The notes beneath the pieces are model-generated. The model was not told where the DNA came from. It saw nothing but the letters and a program-made list of their open reading frames with translations, and did not search any database. This document shows positions 3,646 to 37,213 of a stretch of 64,000 nucleotides of DNA, piece after piece. Made by a program: the position numbers and the translations under genes. The stretch is taken from contig NZ_FNEQ01000004.1 of assembly GCF_900100205.1 (NCBI RefSeq), positions 248,001-312,000 of the forward strand, given 5' to 3'. The first letter of the stretch is position 1. Every line of letters starts with the position of its first letter. The stretch is from Duganella sp. OV510 (GTDB taxonomy: Bacteria; Pseudomonadota; Gammaproteobacteria; Burkholderiales; Burkholderiaceae_D).

Positions 3646-4635
3646 TTACGATTTGGCGAAGGCCAGGAAGTCGTTGTGGAACTTGTCTTTGTGCGTGTCG
3701 GTCAGACCGTGTGGTGCGCCTGGGTAGACGATCAGTTTCGAACCTTTGACGATCTTGGCCGAGGCGATGCCGGCGGCTTTGATCGGCACGATCTGGTCAT
3801 CATCACCGTGGATGATCAGCGTTGGCTTGTCGAACTTTTTCAGGTCTTCGCGGAAGTCGGTTTCCGAGAAGGCTTTGATCGAGTCGTAGGTGTTTTTGAA
3901 GCCACCCTGCATGCCTTGGGCGTACCAGGCCTGGATGATGCCTTGCGACGGTTTGGCACCGGGACGGTTGTAGTTGTAGAACGGGCCGGAGGCGATATCC
4001 AGATACAGCTGGCCACGATCCTTGACCTGGCCGGCGCGGATGCCGTCGAACACTTCCAGTGGCAGGCCGTCGGGATTGTCAGCAGTTTTCAGCATCAGCG
4101 GAGGCACGGCCGAGATCAGGCCCAACTTGGCGATGCGTTTGGTGCCGTGACGGCCGACATAGCGTGCCACTTCGCCGCCGCCGGTTGAGAAGCCAGCCAG
4201 AATGATGTTCTTCAGATCCAGCGCTTCGATCAGTTGCGCCAGGTCGTCAGCGTAGTGGTCCATATCGTTGCCTTCCCAAGGCTGGCTCGAACGGCCGTGC
4301 CCACGGCGGTCATGGGTGATGACGCGGAAACCGTTATTCGCCAAGAAGAAGGCTGCCGATTCCCAGCTATCTGCATTCAGCGGCCAGCCGTGGCTCAGGA
4401 TCACTGGCTGGCCGTTACGTGGGCCCCAGTCCTTGTAGTAGATCTCAACGCCGTCACGGGTGGTGATGGTGCTCGCGGTCTTAGTCACTTTGCCTGCCAC
4501 AACCGGTGCGGCCTCAGCGCTGCCGCCAACCAGCGCAGCCAGAGGAATGGCGACAGCTGCCGCTGCGGCGCCAGCGCCACCAAACATTGCCGAACGACGG
4601 GACAGGCTGACTTGCTCTTGGGTATTTTTGCTCAT
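3646..4635 (-). CDS. Alpha/beta hydrolase, cofactor-free haloperoxidase type, Tat-exported (copy 1)
   Basis: This 329-residue protein begins with a twin-arginine-type leader ([11 protein letters not shown] plus an Ala-rich hydrophobic stretch ending AEAAP). The mature part is a classic non-heme chloroperoxidase/bromoperoxidase-like hydrolase: [10 protein letters not shown] oxyanion region, [10 protein letters not shown], nucleophile elbow GFSTGGGE, Asp in HGDDDQIVP and His in [10 protein letters not shown]. Family members hydrolyse esters and show perhydrolase activity; in vivo roles are mostly unknown. The mature part is almost identical to the next gene at 4764, while the leader differs clearly. 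CGGAG precedes the start. Its terminator lies at 3612-3636. Confidence 0.9.
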
Positions 4636-30395: not shown

Positions 30396-30635
30396 ATGGT
30401 CACGATACAAATTTCCCTTCCAGACGATTTGGTGCGGGACGCCACTGAGCTGGGGCTGCTGGATGCAAGCAATCTGGAAGCGATCTTACGGAGCGAAATT
30501 CGAGAACACGCTTTTCAAAGCTTATTGAGCATTGCACCAAGATTAGCAGCAGCCGGCGTGCAACCCTTGAGTGAAGAAGAGGTGGTCGCAGAAGTACGCG
30601 CGGCAAGGGCAGAGCAATATGCGTCTGGTACTTGA
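30396..30635 (+). CDS. Antitoxin of a VapBC-type toxin-antitoxin pair
   Basis: The 79-residue product starts MVTIQISLPDDLVRDATELG and is short, charged and helix-rich, with a C-terminal tail SEEEVVAEVRAARAEQYASG that could wrap the toxin. AGGAGG lies upstream. Its stop lies 14 bp inside the PIN-domain gene, a typical co-translated TA arrangement. The pair looks AT-richer than the surrounding GC-rich genes. Antitoxin identity rests on size, arrangement and the partner. Confidence 0.8.
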   Translation: MVTIQISLPDDLVRDATELGLLDASNLEAILRSEIREHAFQSLLSIAPRLAAAGVQPLSEEEVVAEVRAARAEQYASGT

Positions 30636-31050
30636 CACAAATGTCGTCGTCTCAGCATTTGTGGCGCAAGGTGCGCCACACCATTTACTGCAAATGGCAG
30701 CCAGAAATCATATTGCAATCTGCGCGAGCGTAGAACTCTTGTCCGAGCTGAAGGTGGTGCTTGGTCGAAAAAGGATCGTGTCACGGCTACAGCGTATGCA
30801 GCGCCATCCAGATGAGGTGATGCGAAAATATACGGCGATCTCCTCCATCGTACGCGCGCCGCCGCCATACCCTCACATTGCACGAGATCCCAAAGATGAT
30901 ATGGTGCTCGCCTGCGCACTCGCTGCAAAAGCAACAGCAATCGTCACGGGAGACAACGATCTTCTAGTCATCCAACAATATCAGGGTATGCAGATACTGC
31001 GACCCAGGCAAGCCTTGCAAAAAGTGATGTTTAGAACCGGCTTTCCATGA
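30619..31050 (+). CDS. PIN-domain toxin (VapC-like, putative ribonuclease)
   Basis: The 143-residue protein starts MRLVLDTNVVVSAFVAQGAP with the first catalytic Asp (LDTNVVVSAF). ASVELLSEL supplies the conserved acidic residue, and DPKDDMVLACALAAKATAIV followed by TGDNDLL supplies the remaining catalytic Asp residues. This is the COG1569-type PIN toxin, a Mg-dependent RNase. The start overlaps the antitoxin gene by 17 bases. Its 3' end overlaps the convergent LacI gene by 20 bases. Confidence 0.85.
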   Translation: MRLVLDTNVVVSAFVAQGAPHHLLQMAARNHIAICASVELLSELKVVLGRKRIVSRLQRMQRHPDEVMRKYTAISSIVRAPPPYPHIARDPKDDMVLACALAAKATAIVTGDNDLLVIQQYQGMQILRPRQALQKVMFRTGFP

Positions 31051-32050
31051 TCTGGCCCACAGTGGCGCCTTCCAGCAATACTGGTTGCCACAGTTCCTGC
31101 AATTCGCTGGCGGGCGTGCCGTCGACCAGTGCCAGCAGCATGTCGACCATGCGCGCGCCGGCTTTGCGCGGGTCCGGCTGGTCGATGGTGGTGACGTTGG
31201 CGCCAGCCAGCGTATCGGCCATGCTGCCCCAGACGATGACGGAGATGTCCGTGCCAATCGCCACACCCGCATCAAGCAAGGCGCGCACCGCGCCAACGCC
31301 GGACAGGTGGTTATCGACGATCACCGCCGTCGGACGCGGCGCGCACGCCAGCAGTTGCTGCATGGCCTGGTAGCCGCTGCGGCGATCCAGCGTGTTGTCG
31401 ATCAGGTAGCGTGGATCGGCACTGAGGCCCGCCTCCGCCAGCGAGGCGACAAAGCTGTCCTTGCGCTGACGGGCGAAGTTCAATTCCAGCGGTGCGCTGA
31501 TCAAAGCCAGGCGCTGATGGCCCAATCCCAGCAACCGCTGCATCGCCAGACGAACGCCGGCGTCGTTGTCGTAGTCGAACCACGCATACGGCGCTTTCAG
31601 CGCCGTGCGGCCATGCGCGACAAACGGGAATTTGGCTTTGCTGAGGAAGGCGATGCGCTCGTCGTGCACCAGCGTGCGCCCCACCACCAGGCCGTCGACG
31701 CGGCGTCCGCGCACGATCTGCTGATATGCGGGCTGCTCCGCCGCCGGCGACACCGGCGCGATGATCAGGCTTTTGCTGACGTCCTCCAGCGCGGCCGACA
31801 TGCCAGCCACCACGTCGAGGAACATCGGATCGCCCAGGTCCGTCGGCAGCAGCGGATAAATGATGCCGAAGACGTTGGTGCGTCCCAGCGCCAGCGAGCG
31901 CGCCATCGGATTCGGCTGGTAGCCGACCTCCTGGGCCGCTTTCAGCACGCGCTCGCGCGTGCGCACATTCACCTCGGGGTAACCGTTTAACGCGCGGCTC
32001 ACCGTGGTCTTGGACATGCCAAGGTGATGTGCGAGATGCGCGAGGTTCAT
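31031..32050 (-). CDS. LacI-family transcriptional repressor
   Basis: This 339-residue protein has an N-terminal LacI HTH (MNLAHLAHHLGMSKTTVSRA then LNGYPEVNVRTRERVLKAAQ) with the hinge ARSLALGRTNVFGII. A periplasmic-binding-protein-like sugar domain follows (VDGLVVGRT, VVDNHLSGVGAVRALLDAG-type segments). The target is unknown: no transporter or sugar enzyme is divergent from it, and the trehalose operon downstream lies on the same strand with its own genes running away from it. The promoter side is short (32051-32147). Confidence 0.88.
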   Translation of the reverse strand: MNLAHLAHHLGMSKTTVSRALNGYPEVNVRTRERVLKAAQEVGYQPNPMARSLALGRTNVFGIIYPLLPTDLGDPMFLDVVAGMSAALEDVSKSLIIAPVSPAAEQPAYQQIVRGRRVDGLVVGRTLVHDERIAFLSKAKFPFVAHGRTALKAPYAWFDYDNDAGVRLAMQRLLGLGHQRLALISAPLELNFARQRKDSFVASLAEAGLSADPRYLIDNTLDRRSGYQAMQQLLACAPRPTAVIVDNHLSGVGAVRALLDAGVAIGTDISVIVWGSMADTLAGANVTTIDQPDPRKAGARMVDMLLALVDGTPASELQELWQPVLLEGATVGQIMESRF

Positions 32051-32147: not shown

Positions 32148-33959
32148 CTATACCACGCTGTCCCACGGAACTGACAGCCGCATGGCGCAGTTGATCAGCC
32201 CCACCATCGAGTAGGTCTGCGGGAAGTTGCCCCACATTTCACCGGTCACCGGATGGGTGTCTTCGGACAGCAGGCCGAGATGGTTGCGCGCCTTCAGCAT
32301 GGTCTCGAAGATGGCGCGCGCCTCGTCCTTGCGGCCAATACGCGCCAGCGCGTCGATGCGCCAGAAGGTGCAGATATTGAAGGCGGTTTCCGGCTTGCCG
32401 AAATCGTCCGGTGCTTCATAACGGCGCATATAGGGGCCGTCGCACAGCGATTCCTCCAGCGCCTTGACGGTGGCAATGAAGCGCGGGTCTTTGGGATCGA
32501 TGATGTTGACCTCGGCCATCAGCAGCACGCTGGCATCGAGATCGCGCCCGCCCAGGCTTTCGGCGAAGGCCTGGCGCTCCTCGCTCCACGAGTCGCGCAG
32601 CAGCGGCACGCGGATCTGCTCCGCACGCTCCTGCCAGTATGCATGGCGATCATCCAGACCCAGCGCCAGCGCGATCTTGGCCAGGCGGTCGCAGGCAGCC
32701 CAGCTCATCAGCATCGACGAGGTATGGACACGGGCACGCGTGCGCAGTTCCCACATGCCGGCGTCCGGCTGGTCGTGCACCCGGAACGCCTGTTCGCCCA
32801 CCGCTTCCAGATGGCGGAACTCGGCCACGCCGGCGCGGTTCAGCAGGCGGTGATCGAGGAAGGCTTGCGCCGCACCCAGCACCACATTGCCATAGACGTC
32901 GTGCTGGAAGTGTTCCTGCGCCTGGTTGCCCACCCGTACCGGGCGGTGGCCGCGGTAGCCGGGCAGGTTGTCGACCGTTGATTCCGGCAGCAGTTCCTCC
33001 AGTCCGATGCCGTACAGCGGCTGGATATGGCCGCCCTTGGAGCGCGCCACGATGTTGCTCAGCCAGCGCAGGTATTCCTCCATGGTGCCGACCTCGGACA
33101 GGCTGTTGAGCGCGCGCACCACAAAGAAGGCGTCCCGCAGCCAGCAGTAGCGGTAGTCCCAGTTGCGGGCGCTGCCGGGCGCCTCAGGCACGCTGGTGGT
33201 CATGGCGGCGATGATGGCGCCGGTGTCCTCGTACAACGACATCTTGAGCGTGATGGCGGCGCGTATCACCACGTCCTGCCATTCATAGGGCAGCGCCAGG
33301 CGGCGGCTCCACGTACGCCAGTAATTGATGGTTTCCTTCTCGAAGCGACGACAGACGTCCTCGATGCCATCGTTCAGCGTTTCGTCCGGACCGAGGGTGA
33401 AATTCAGCCCGCCGTTGACCAGGAACCACGATTCGGACAGCAGGTGGCTGAGCGAGGCGTCGGTGTTCAGCCGCAGCGTCTGTTCCGCGCCGACATAGCG
33501 GATATGGTGGCTGCCGCGCGTAACCACCGGCGCCTCGCTGCCCCAGTTGAAACGCGGCCGCAGTTTGACACGGATGCGCACCGCGCTGTTCAGCAGGCGG
33601 ATACGGCGGATCAGCATCAGGGGCCGGAACATGCGGTCGCGGCTGGTGAAGCGTGGCGCAAAATCGCTGATCTCGATGCCGGCGCCGCGTGCGTCGCTCA
33701 GGCGGGTGCGCAACACCGCGGTGTTGGGATCATAGAACTGTTCGGTCTTGACGCAGTCTTCCAGTTCAATGCTCCACAGGCCGCCTTTTTCGGTGTCGTC
33801 GAGCAGCGCGTTGAACACCGGGTCGCCATCGAAGCGCGGCAGGCAGCACCAGACGATGCTGCCGCGCTGGTCGACCATTGCGTTGTATGAACAGTTGCCG
33901 ATGACGCCGCAGTTCAGCGAGGCTTCGGTCGGGAGGGCGGTGGCGGAATGGTCGGTCAT
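32148..33959 (-). CDS. Glycoside hydrolase family 15 protein
   Basis: The 603-residue protein has an N-terminal beta-sandwich (about 1-230) and a GH15 (alpha/alpha)6 barrel with PGSARNWDYRYCWLRDAFFV. Acidic catalytic residues lie in DAGMWELR and GLLSEDTHPVTGEMWGNFPQ. GH15 enzymes act on alpha-linked glucans or trehalose. Here it ends the otsA-otsB-GH15 operon, which favours a role in trehalose or glycogen turnover (trehalase-like). The start ATG overlaps the otsB stop by four bases. Confidence 0.9.
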   Translation of the reverse strand: MTDHSATALPTEASLNCGVIGNCSYNAMVDQRGSIVWCCLPRFDGDPVFNALLDDTEKGGLWSIELEDCVKTEQFYDPNTAVLRTRLSDARGAGIEISDFAPRFTSRDRMFRPLMLIRRIRLLNSAVRIRVKLRPRFNWGSEAPVVTRGSHHIRYVGAEQTLRLNTDASLSHLLSESWFLVNGGLNFTLGPDETLNDGIEDVCRRFEKETINYWRTWSRRLALPYEWQDVVIRAAITLKMSLYEDTGAIIAAMTTSVPEAPGSARNWDYRYCWLRDAFFVVRALNSLSEVGTMEEYLRWLSNIVARSKGGHIQPLYGIGLEELLPESTVDNLPGYRGHRPVRVGNQAQEHFQHDVYGNVVLGAAQAFLDHRLLNRAGVAEFRHLEAVGEQAFRVHDQPDAGMWELRTRARVHTSSMLMSWAACDRLAKIALALGLDDRHAYWQERAEQIRVPLLRDSWSEERQAFAESLGGRDLDASVLLMAEVNIIDPKDPRFIATVKALEESLCDGPYMRRYEAPDDFGKPETAFNICTFWRIDALARIGRKDEARAIFETMLKARNHLGLLSEDTHPVTGEMWGNFPQTYSMVGLINCAMRLSVPWDSVV

Positions 33960-34732
33960 ATAGGGTCTCCTTGCAGAATGGCGGCTTGCGCCAGCAGCGC
34001 ATGCAGCGCCTGCGGCTGGGCCAGACGGTGATGGGCGGCACTGTCGCCGGCGCCGACCTTGACGCCGATGCCGCCGACTTGCTGGGCGTAGATGATGGCG
34101 GCTTCATCGGTGGTGTCATCGCCGATGAACACCGGACGGTGGCCCTTGAATGGCGGCTCTTGCAGGAACGCGGCCAGCACCGCCCCCTTGTCGATGCCGG
34201 CCGGCTTCAGTTCCAGCACCATTTTCCCGTGCAGCAGCACGGTGCCCGGACAGGCCGCCAGCGCCGCGCGCATGGCCTGCAGGCAGACGGATTCCAGCGC
34301 CGGCGCCAGCCGGTAGTGCAAGGCCAGGGCGCCGCGCTTTTCTTCCAGCAGCAAGCCGTCGTGGGCGGCGACCAGCGACCGCAGATGCGGCCGGGCCGGC
34401 TCCAGCGACGGCGTGCTGGCGTAGTGCCAAACGCCGTTGGCGTCGCGCCGTTCGGCACCATGGACGCCCGCCGCCGCCAGCGTCAATGGTGCCAGCATGG
34501 CGTCGATCTGCGCCACCGGGCGGCCGCTGACGATGGCCAGCCGGCCGTCGAGTTGCGCCGCCACCGCAGCCAGCAGCTGCGCCAGGCCGGGTGCCACCAC
34601 CACTGCATCCGGGCTGGCCGCCAGCTCGACCAGCGTGCCGTCGAAATCCAGGAACAGGGCGCAGTCGCGCCAGTCATCCGGCAGCGTGAAGTCGCGGGCG
34701 GGCTGACCGGGGAGGGACAGGGAGGCGCGCAT
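33956..34732 (-). CDS. otsB: Trehalose-6-phosphate phosphatase OtsB
   Basis: The 258-residue HAD-type phosphatase has motif I LFLDFDGTLVELA (DxDGT), the SGRP loop in LAIVSGRPVAQIDAM and motif IV GDDTTDEAAI. It removes phosphate from trehalose-6-phosphate to give trehalose. It lies between otsA (2-bp gap) and the GH15 gene (overlap), so all three are probably one transcript. Length and motifs are normal. Confidence 0.92.
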   Translation of the reverse strand: MRASLSLPGQPARDFTLPDDWRDCALFLDFDGTLVELAASPDAVVVAPGLAQLLAAVAAQLDGRLAIVSGRPVAQIDAMLAPLTLAAAGVHGAERRDANGVWHYASTPSLEPARPHLRSLVAAHDGLLLEEKRGALALHYRLAPALESVCLQAMRAALAACPGTVLLHGKMVLELKPAGIDKGAVLAAFLQEPPFKGHRPVFIGDDTTDEAAIIYAQQVGGIGVKVGAGDSAAHHRLAQPQALHALLAQAAILQGDPI

Positions 34733-34734
34733 GG

Positions 34735-37002
34735 TCAGCCCACCCGCCGCAGTCCGCCACGGCTGTGGGCGCGGATCTTCTGCATGACTTTTTCGCGCTT
34801 GCGCAGCCGTGCGGCGTCCAGCAGCATGTGGCCCGCCCAGCGGTAGACATTGAAACGGCGCACCCGGTCGCGCATGGCGCGCATGCGTTCACGCTGTTCG
34901 CTGACCGGCATGGTGAGGCCGCGGTACAAGGCCTCGGCGCCCTGTTCGATGTGGTAGGGATTGATGATCAAGGCCTCGTGCAGCTCGCGCGCGGCACCGG
35001 TGAACTGGCTGAGCACCAGTGCCCCGCCTTCATCATCGCGGGCGGCGAGGTATTCCTTGGCCACCAGATTCATGCCGTCGTGCAGGCTGGTCACCATGCA
35101 CACTTCGCTGGCGCGGAAGTAGCGCTGCAGGTCCTCCTGTTCGTGATGCTCGATCTTGAGGATGATCGGCGGTGCACTGGCGCCGGCGTAACGCTCGTTG
35201 ATGGCGGCCGCCAGCTGGCGCACGCGCTGCTCAAAGCTCATGTACTCCTCCAGGTCGGAGCGGCTCGGCGCGGCGATCTGCACCAGGCTGAAACGGCCCA
35301 CCATGCCGGGATGCAATTCCAACATGCGCTCGACCGCCTGGAAGCGCTCCAGGATGCCCTTGGTGTAGTCGAGGCGGTCGACGCCAAAGCCCAGCAGGTG
35401 ATCGCGCGGCACGCCGAGGTAATCGCGGATCTCGCGGTGGCACTGCTCCACCGGAGCGAGGTCGGGATAGTCCGGCCAGGCGATCGAGATCGGATAGTCT
35501 TCCACCTGCGTCAGTTCGCCGCCATAGGAGATGGTCGAGGCTTCCTGTTCGATGCGCGTCTCCAGGTAGCGGTCGACGGTGTCGAGGAAGTTCTTGCGGT
35601 GGAATGGGGTGTGGAAGCCGAGGATGGTGCTGCCCAGCATGCCGTCCAGGATCTCTTCGCGCCACGGGCAAATGCCGAACGATTCCGAGTTGGGCCAGGG
35701 AATGTGCCAGAAGGTGATGATGGTGGCTTTCGGCAGCGCTTCGCGCACCATGCGCGGCAGCAGGGCGAAGTGGTAGTCCTGCACCAGCACCACCGGGTTG
35801 TCGCTGCGCGCCTCGGCGATCACCGCGTCGGCGAAGCGACGGTTGACCTTGACGTATTCAGCCCAGTCGGCGCTGCGAAACACCGGCCGCACATGGGCGA
35901 TATGGCACAGCGGCCACAATCCTTCGTTGGCGAAGCCATAGTAATAGCCCTGCTCTTCCTGCTTGGTCAGCCAGACGCGCCGCAGCGTGTAGCGCGGATT
36001 GTCCGGCGGCACCGGCACATGATCGTTGCGGTCGACGGTTTCCTTGTCGGCGCTGCCGGCGCCGTGGGCGATCCACGTGCCGGAGCAGGCCCGCATCACC
36101 GCTTCGACAGCGGTCACCAGGCCGCTGGCCGGACGGCGCACGCGGATGGTGCCGTCGGCTGCCGCGTCATGGATGTACGGTTCACGGTTGGATACCACCA
36201 GCACCTCATCGCCGGCCAGGTCTTGCTGCAGCAGCGACTTGAGTTTTTCCGGCGCCCAGTCGGCAGCACCGGACTCGCCGCTGCTGCGCTGGCGCTCCTC
36301 GTGATACTCCTCCATCAAGCCGCGCAGTTCGCCGATCAGCGGTTCCATCTCAGGCGACGGCGCAGCACTCGGCGCGCGCGCGCTGCGGCCCAGTTGGCCA
36401 CGCAGCACATCCTTCACGCCAGCCAGCCAGCCGCGCCAGCTGAGATGCGACACCACCAGCGTCAGCACCGAGATGGCCACTGCCAGCAGCGCGAAAAAGC
36501 CCAGCACGTATTTCGTGGTTTCAGCGCTGCGGCGTTCGATGAAGCTCATATCGTGCACCAGGATCAGGCGGCCGAACACGCTGGCGTCGTCGCGGATTTG
36601 CGTTTCAGCCACATGCACCGGGCCGCGCGGCAAGCGCACCAGCGACCGGCGCTTGCTGCCGTCGGCCGGTTCGTTCCAGCAGCCCAGCGACGCCGGGTAG
36701 CTGGCGCTCTGGTACAGCAACTTCTCGTTGCTGTCGCAGTAGGCCAGTGCGAACAGGCGTTCGTCCTGGACCGCGCTGTCGAACAGACGCTTGATACGGA
36801 CCCGGTCGTTGGCCTGCACGTATTCGCGCAGCGGCAGTTGCAGCGTGGATGCCAGCAACTGCGAGCGGTTGTCGAGGTCGCGCACCGACCAGCGCAGGGT
36901 CAGGCTGTCCATCAGTGGCACGAGGATGTAGGCGAACAGGCCGAGAAGAACGGCCAGTGGCAGGATGAAGCGGAGCGATAGTTTGAATGAGCGTGACAAC
37001 AT
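34735..37002 (-). CDS. otsA: Membrane-anchored trehalose-6-phosphate synthase with sensor-like N-terminus
   Basis: This 755-residue protein has an unusual layout. TM1 is at about 11-31 ([20 protein letters not shown]). A periplasmic segment at 32-163 includes [20 protein letters not shown] and [21 protein letters not shown]2 is at 164-186, then a charged linker to about 265. The GT20 synthase follows to the end, with [50 protein letters not shown] and [12 protein letters not shown]. Typical OtsA is a soluble enzyme of about 470-500 residues, so the first 265 residues are an addition. The TM-periplasm-TM module looks like sensor domains of signalling proteins. The catalytic part makes T6P from UDP-glucose and glucose-6-phosphate. 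Confidence 0.9.
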
Positions 37003-37213
37003 GACGGGCTTCCGTGACCTGGAAACCTTATTGTTTCATTCCAGGCACGTGCTTCAATGTTCGCCAACGCACGATGGCTGGCAATTTGCTGCATTGCAGC
37101 TAACTTTTATCGGTCGGCAATGCCCCAGCCCCGTGGTGAGCGCGCCGGCCTTGCGTTTTTTATTTTTATGGCCTAATCTGCAATAAATGCATCATCCTGC
37201 CTGAAGGATTGCC
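37003..37213. promoter_or_regulatory. Divergent promoter region of otsA and a coiled-coil gene
   Basis: These 211 bases separate two divergent genes and carry a local AT-rich tract (around 37156-37170) in an otherwise mixed background. I see no clear operator or consensus promoter pair. AAGGA lies just ahead of the plus-strand gene. Confidence 0.35.

Follow-up and report, generated by a model that had tools for sequence, protein, structure and literature searches.

A trehalose-6-phosphate synthase fused to a predicted periplasmic PDC/PAS-type sensor domain as a putative membrane receptor-enzyme

In Duganella sp. OV510 a single gene encodes an OtsA-type GT20 enzyme joined to two transmembrane (TM) segments, a predicted periplasmic PDC/PAS-type domain and a HAMP-like linker (Table 1). 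The gene lies in a 64,000-nucleotide stretch of contig NZ_FNEQ01000004.1 that was analysed as a whole and is referred to as the window. It is moderately probable that the fused OtsA is a one-piece membrane receptor-enzyme, in which sensing by the outside PDC domain is relayed inward to set the synthesis of trehalose-6-phosphate (T6P). The modular receptor-enzyme reading is well supported, and the putative sensor likely alters GT20 activity. Topology, fold, intact active-site motifs, gene order, conservation and modularity were each obtained by prediction or comparison.

Table 1. Features of the fused otsA gene and its operon, in window coordinates
Feature	Residues	Coordinates	Strand	Basis
Fused otsA, TM1 - periplasmic PDC/PAS-like domain - TM2 - HAMP-like linker - GT20		34735..37002	-	755 aa, ATG start
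TM1	12-30	36913..36969	-	Kyte-Doolittle peak; runs unbroken into helix 2-63 of the model
Periplasmic PDC/PAS-like sensor domain (predicted)	35-152	36547..36900	-	AlphaFold2 models and fold matches
Cys89, putative disulfide partner	89	36736..36738	-	invariant 77/77
Cys108, putative disulfide partner	108	36679..36681	-	invariant 77/77
Sensor exit motif D151-x-S153...R158	151-158	36529..36552	-	D151, S153 and R158 invariant 77/77
TM2	166-184	36451..36507	-	Kyte-Doolittle peak and model
First HAMP-like helix (AS1-like)	186-202	36397..36447	-	no indels S188-G202 in 77/77; model helix to residue 200
Variable-length connector	203-220	36343..36396	-	alignment spacing; low pLDDT
Second HAMP-like helix (AS2-like), from P221-E	221-244	36271..36342	-	spacing and model helix
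Enzyme-proximal helix W249...G264	249-264	36211..36258	-	indel-free 77/77; retained in sensor-less relatives
GT20 domain	266-729	34816..36207	-	PF00982 E 6.8e-115, 384.9 bits (cut-off 32.5), profile 2-470 of 473
otsB, trehalose-6-phosphate phosphatase		33956..34732	-	TIGR00685 140 bits, cut-off 68
GH15 protein, trehalase-like		32148..33959	-	PF00723; trehalase-like N-terminal domain PF19291 above Pfam cut-off

Gene organization and membrane topology

A Shine-Dalgarno-like sequence, GGAAG, lies a short way upstream of the otsA start codon. otsB follows after a gap of 2 bases, and otsB and the GH15 gene overlap by 4 bases. A preliminary description of the window had placed the fused enzyme at the head of an otsA-otsB-GH15 operon, which gene order, spacing and domain matches bear out. 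The GH15 protein is likely a trehalase, although it stays under the NCBIfam trehalase cut-offs (at best 309 vs 820).

A LacI-family regulator is encoded 97 bases beyond the GH15 gene on the same strand (window 31031-32050, minus strand). It was rejected as a conserved operon member since a homologue was found at just 1/80 related loci (L037). The 3' end of a gene for a PIN_3-domain protein (window 30571-31050, plus strand) overlaps the lacI 3' end by 20 bases. Upstream of otsA, window 37088-37158 holds two terminator-like stem-loops on the plus strand where shuffles expect 0.4, and a promoter scan of the upstream region found no sigma-70-like site.

Hydropathy analysis separates TM1 and TM2 by about 135 residues, in agreement with the preliminary description of two TM segments around an outside part of ~130 residues. 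The N-terminus of the fused OtsA is positively charged and several positive residues also lie C-terminal to TM2. By the positive-inside rule, which is well established for membrane topology, these charges make N-in, loop-out, C-in the natural topology.

The periplasmic part is predicted to fold as a PDC/PAS-type sensor domain

The N-terminal part was modelled with AlphaFold2 using 77 N-termini, namely those of the window protein and of 76 of the 80 named loci described below (L033, L077, L091 and L104 were omitted). Mean pLDDT of the model is 86, and 10-residue blocks across residues 21-160 reach 93-97 except for 79 at 111-120. The model contains helices at residues 2-63, 67-80 and 153-200, the last of which holds TM2, and the periplasmic part has strands at 83-90, 95-98, 121-124, 127-138 and 141-151. 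A full-length model from 38 sequences reproduces the N-terminal elements. Both models speak against an unfolded anchor, which the preliminary description had named, combined with a lack of effect on the enzyme, as a refutation of its reading.

Structural comparison of the outside part with VIA-align gave the WalK extracellular domain as best crystal match (4ywz, Z 11.9, 123 residues, rmsd 2.9 A). Further matches were a LapD orthologue (4u64, Z 10.9), CusS (10.6), LuxQ (10.1), CitA (10.0) and DcuS (9.8), and the chemoreceptor TlpB was also among the top matches. The top row itself, 9a5d (Z 12.6), stems from integrative modelling of WalK, not from a crystal, and its TM helices may add to the score. 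Foldseek puts the same domain kinds first; its sole match at E <=0.001 is again 9a5d, and its crystal-structure matches begin at E 1.8e-3 (CitA).

Sequence searches of the same region gave little. The N-terminal part of the window protein matches no Pfam family at E 0.1, Cache included. At this threshold the 77 members match 16 Pfam families; CHASE4 is matched by 7/77, the window protein not among them (best E 2.6e-4), and the commonest, Adeno_E3B, by 35/77 (best E 2.8e-4). The matches other than CHASE4, such as Adeno_E3B, look like noise. A sequence profile search of the PDB with the N-terminus returned two matches (E 0.21 and 1.5), neither of them informative. Judged by sequence, the outside domain is nearly an orphan. 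The models and their structural matches predict that the outside part of the fused OtsA folds as a PDC/PAS-type (single-Cache-type) sensor. The preliminary description had called it sensor-like, and the nearest solved matches are indeed sensor domains of kinases and chemoreceptors.

Every one of the 77 rows has exactly two cysteines in the periplasmic part. C89 ends the first strand and C108 sits in the loop following the second strand, positions that make a disulfide between them plausible. R82 is likewise invariant (77/77). Junctions between PAS domains and their linkers are known to carry a D-x-[ST] element, and an element of this kind precedes TM2 here. Among the folded parts of the fused OtsA, conservation is lowest in the PAS core, with a mean top-residue frequency of 0.50 compared with 0.65-0.72 in the TM1, first-helix and TM2 parts and 0.78 in the GT20 part.

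Outside GT20 proteins, the N-terminal profile matched a PAS-HATPase-response-regulator hybrid kinase (E 1.9e-4) and a dCache_3-PAS-GGDEF-EAL protein (E 6.6e-4) in the phylum and order samples at E 0.001. Both proteins are sensors, and their matches span profile positions 138-231 and 97-234. Because they cover mainly the exit helix, TM2 and linker, they point only weakly to kinship of the sensors.

The linker between TM2 and the enzyme

Spacing along the linker is constant in 77/77 members from D151 to S188 (37 residues), from S188 to G202 (14) and from W249 to G264 (15). P221 and W249 are 26 residues apart in 73/77 and 28 in the window protein itself. The bulk of the length variation falls between G202 and P221 (15 to 33 residues), where the connector of a HAMP domain would sit. 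Model and spacing together place two helices of near-constant length and a connector directly after TM2, as would be expected of a HAMP unit. Pfam HAMP (PF00672) was matched by 0/77 members at E 0.1. Since a connector of 15-33 residues exceeds the usual HAMP connector length, the linker is called HAMP-like only. Residues 191-250 have low pLDDT (43-58) in the full-length model. With this low pLDDT, the variable connector and the exceptional P221-W249 spacing of the window protein, any relay via the linker need not be rigid. The conserved spacing is the strongest hint of coupling between sensor and enzyme.

The enzyme part is an OtsA-type GT20 domain

In an alignment of the enzyme part with 5jij, the solved OtsA of M. 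thermoresistibile (E 2e-86), the active-site motifs are retained, including DGMNLVAKE. Donor and acceptor are held by these motifs. The near-complete PF00982 match and the OtsA motifs uphold the full GT20 domain of the preliminary description. The protein scores 408.5 bits with the NCBIfam OtsA equivalog TIGR02400, below the cut-off of 564.85, and is labelled OtsA-type rather than typical OtsA for this reason. It also scores below the cut-offs of the bifunctional OtsA/OtsB model (474 vs 634) and of glucosylglycerol-phosphate synthase TIGR02398 (289 vs 569 bits). The GT20 part is predicted to be an OtsA-type trehalose-6-phosphate synthase. In the full-length model the linker enters strand 267-270, which leads into the SNREP loop.

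The fused protein is the sole GT20 of the source genome, and neither TreY nor TreS was found there above cut-off (best 62 vs 499 and 264 vs 678 bits). For these two reasons the fused OtsA may well be the only route of this cell to trehalose.

Distribution of the fusion

The named loci are the best 80 of at least 565 confirmed relatives found in a scan. Because the query contained the N-terminus, they were selected for it; unselected counts of the fusion come from samples of whole genomes (family, order and phylum). Two TM segments and the same layout are found in 80/80 loci, these being the best 80 of at least 565, and a frame-fusion artefact is excluded by this identical layout. L063 and L064 show a third, marginal TM peak. 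Fusion-bearing records are labelled Janthinobacterium, Massilia, Noviherbaspirillum, Herminiimonas, Paucimonas, Ramlibacter, Sulfurisoma, Geobacter and Smithella. Fusion-bearing MAGs, whose labels can be wrong, are labelled Acidobacteria, Bdellovibrionales, Oligoflexia and Verrucomicrobia.

With the source genome counted each time, the N-terminal profile matched 52/145 sampled genomes of the source family (21/44 genera), 31/399 of the source order and 5/398 of the source phylum. Of the 52 matches, those in G047 and G060 are confined to the linker, and G017, G021 and G071 are in pieces; one match in the order sample (G827) is a GGDEF-EAL protein and one in the phylum sample (G574) a kinase. The fusion is present in 4/8 sampled genomes of the source genus, the source genome again counted. 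GT20 itself occurs in 82/145 genomes of the family and 144/397 of the phylum. The profile apparently overlooks divergent members such as G504 (L121), which was found via GT20, has the same layout and is absent from the phylum-sample matches. In some families the fused form occurs often, but it is in the minority across all samples taken together. The preliminary description had named a recent fusion unique to this strain as a possibility and proposed a survey for the same fusion. The fusion recurs widely, so it is neither recent nor unique; a recent or strain-specific origin is excluded by the family, order and phylum survey together with the GT20 clade described below.

Within the source genome no second protein with the same sensor was found at E up to 10, and the N-terminus had no match among PLSDB plasmids. 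OtsB matches are present at 70/80 loci and GH15 matches at 50/80, including some fragments where contigs end. In much of the Geobacter/Smithella group, GH15 lies upstream of otsA.

At L091 (1137-4514) an OtsB match (3792-4478) lies in frame inside the sensor-OtsA open frame, so that sensor, OtsA and OtsB are apparently joined in one triple fusion; a fusion of this kind could also account for the long open frames of G707 (1042) and G944 (1004). At L104 (4768-8220) the fused otsA frame is ~400 residues longer before TM1, through start choice or a further fusion.

A single GT20 clade with sensor-less relatives

A profile of the fused-clade GT20 gave a clean separation into two groups, with 795-990 bits for the fused and sensor-less proteins listed from L001-L031 and L112-L123 versus 231-295 for 16 other GT20 proteins. 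A FastTree phylogeny of 116 GT20 domains was built with midpoint rooting (121 were found; three repeats and two short ones were dropped). Fused-type GT20 is monophyletic in this tree with a local support of 0.954, relative to a narrow outgroup of 16 proteins all from the source family.

At least three sensor-less, TM-less proteins fall within the clade at three separate places: L117 (G047), L118 (G060) and L119 (G006). They were spotted through frame lengths and linker-only matches, and L119 also lies within L134. Each retains the W-x-(P/A)...LL helix and GT20, the latter by Pfam for L118 and L119. Inspection by eye of L118 and L119 revealed otsB-like frames after the gene and unrelated open frames before it. 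These three proteins look like natural deletions of the sensor. The clade suggests that the fusion had one origin and that several lineages lost the sensor. On this comparison the sensor is a module, without which the enzyme can be kept, and the sensor-less relatives are ready-made natural controls.

Some other GT20 proteins of the source family (L003, L007 and L009) have an N-terminal HAD-phosphatase-like domain, as seen by eye in the translations. This fusion perhaps serves glucosylglycerol. Open frames of similar length occur at L004-L006, L008, L010 and L011.

Proposed mechanism and alternatives

In the proposed mechanism, the periplasmic PDC domain between TM1 and TM2 would detect an outside small molecule or a redox or physical state. 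The change would travel along the D-x-S exit helix and TM2 to the two-helix HAMP-like linker, which would determine how the cytoplasmic GT20 protomers lie relative to one another and, through this, the rate of T6P synthesis. OtsB would then complete trehalose, and the GH15 protein would probably turn it over. We infer the coupling through the dimer, the direction and size of the effect, and the signal. The cue might be a ligand, a physical state or a redox change read by the cysteine pair. Osmolarity or desiccation, the examples given in the preliminary description, would be a reasonable guess in view of the biology of trehalose. According to the accessible part of PMC6879718, OtsA enzymes assemble into dimers or tetramers, and catalysis involves the movement of a helix in their N-terminal domain. 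Because the linker enters the first strand of this domain, which leads to the SNREP loop, a mechanical path from linker to enzyme exists. The chances are about evenly balanced that the fused proteins constitute a widespread class of transmembrane receptor with a stress sugar instead of a signal as output, in which a ligand-sensing or disulfide-sensitive PDC domain gates T6P synthesis in one polypeptide and from which several lineages reverted to an ungated enzyme.

The main rival to the receptor-enzyme reading is that the folded PDC domain only anchors and dimerises the enzyme at the inner membrane, with no switching of activity. T6P production might, for instance, be kept near OtsB or a transporter. 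We regard such a tether as possible but rather unlikely. Sensor-less relatives that retain part of the linker and the enzyme are consistent with it, as are the faster evolution of the PAS core than of the remainder and the connector, which is variable in length and predicted with low confidence. An anchor alone, however, needs neither a folded outside domain with invariant R82, C89, C108, D151, S153 and R158 nor an indel-free exit helix into TM2. Cache-type folds are moreover the dominant known extracellular sensors of prokaryotes in the accessible text of a survey (PMC4822843).

It is improbable that the GT20 domain makes another product, for example glucosylglycerol phosphate, and that the protein is not a T6P synthase. 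This would agree with the scores under the NCBIfam cut-offs for OtsA, OtsA/OtsB and glucosylglycerol-phosphate synthase, and the fused clade is distant from the remaining GT20 proteins retrieved from the source family. Conversely, the OtsA models outscore the glucosylglycerol-phosphate synthase model well, the motifs agree with those of the solved OtsA, and the gene 2 bases downstream encodes a trehalose phosphatase, with an OtsB match at 70/80 loci. Signalling could also run from inside to outside, substrate occupancy of GT20 changing the periplasmic domain, which would act on a periplasmic partner. The close structural match to 4u64 (Z 10.9) would fit such an arrangement, being the periplasmic output domain of an orthologue of LapD, an inside-out receptor. 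Most of the other structural matches listed are instead described as sensor or ligand-binding domains, and we consider this direction of signalling very improbable.

Comparison with known systems

Accounts of trehalose synthesis in bacteria usually ascribe its control to transcription and to metabolites of the cytosol. If the receptor-enzyme reading is true, a PDC sensor on the enzyme that starts the pathway would let an outside cue act directly and quickly on the making of a compatible solute. The recurrence of the fusion in many bacteria suggests that an outside cue may directly set trehalose production. Titles and abstract starts among the matches listed in our literature searches included no membrane-bound or sensor-fused OtsA. 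Within these searches the sensor-OtsA class is undescribed; domain databases may well list the architecture.

The soluble OtsA of E. coli and mycobacteria resembles the fused OtsA in its whole GT20 domain, its active-site motifs and its adjacency to otsB. Solved OtsA chains are mostly 455-515 residues without such an extension, whereas the fused OtsA adds a membrane sensor half and belongs to a GT20 clade of its own. Allostery of mycobacterial OtsA involves cytosolic metabolites at the protomer interface, as far as the accessible part of PMC6879718 describes it. In the available portion of PMC2700814, Geobacter sulfurreducens GSU2337 is described as sharing 37% identity with the M. tuberculosis enzyme over one domain and is paired with the T6P phosphatase GSU2336. 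The likeness lies in the OtsA-type domain and the T6P phosphatase, records labelled Geobacter carry the fusion, and GSU2337 may be a member of the fused form. The otsA of Glaciimonas (Oxalobacteraceae) is given as 1,413 bases in the portion available of PMC10618363, and by that length is unfused.

The outputs of Cache sensors named in the accessible text of the survey are kinases, chemoreceptors, c-di-GMP enzymes, cyclases, phosphatases, transcription factors and channels (PMC4822843). The survey derived its models from proteins whose outputs are signalling ones (PMC4822843), so metabolic outputs could have been missed. The PDC/single-Cache sensors of WalK, CitA, DcuS, CusS and LuxQ share with the fused OtsA a long helix from TM1, a PAS-like core and an exit helix into TM2. 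The fused OtsA differs from them in having a biosynthetic glycosyltransferase as its output, an invariant cysteine pair and no Pfam Cache match. HAMP-linked receptor-enzymes include receptor GGDEF proteins and adenylate cyclases. They too combine an outside sensor, two TM segments, a two-helix linker and an inside enzyme. In contrast, the product of the fused OtsA is the precursor of a compatible solute, not a second messenger, and its linker is without a Pfam HAMP match. The receptor-enzyme reading, if true, would add a biosynthetic enzyme to the known outputs of extracytoplasmic Cache sensors.
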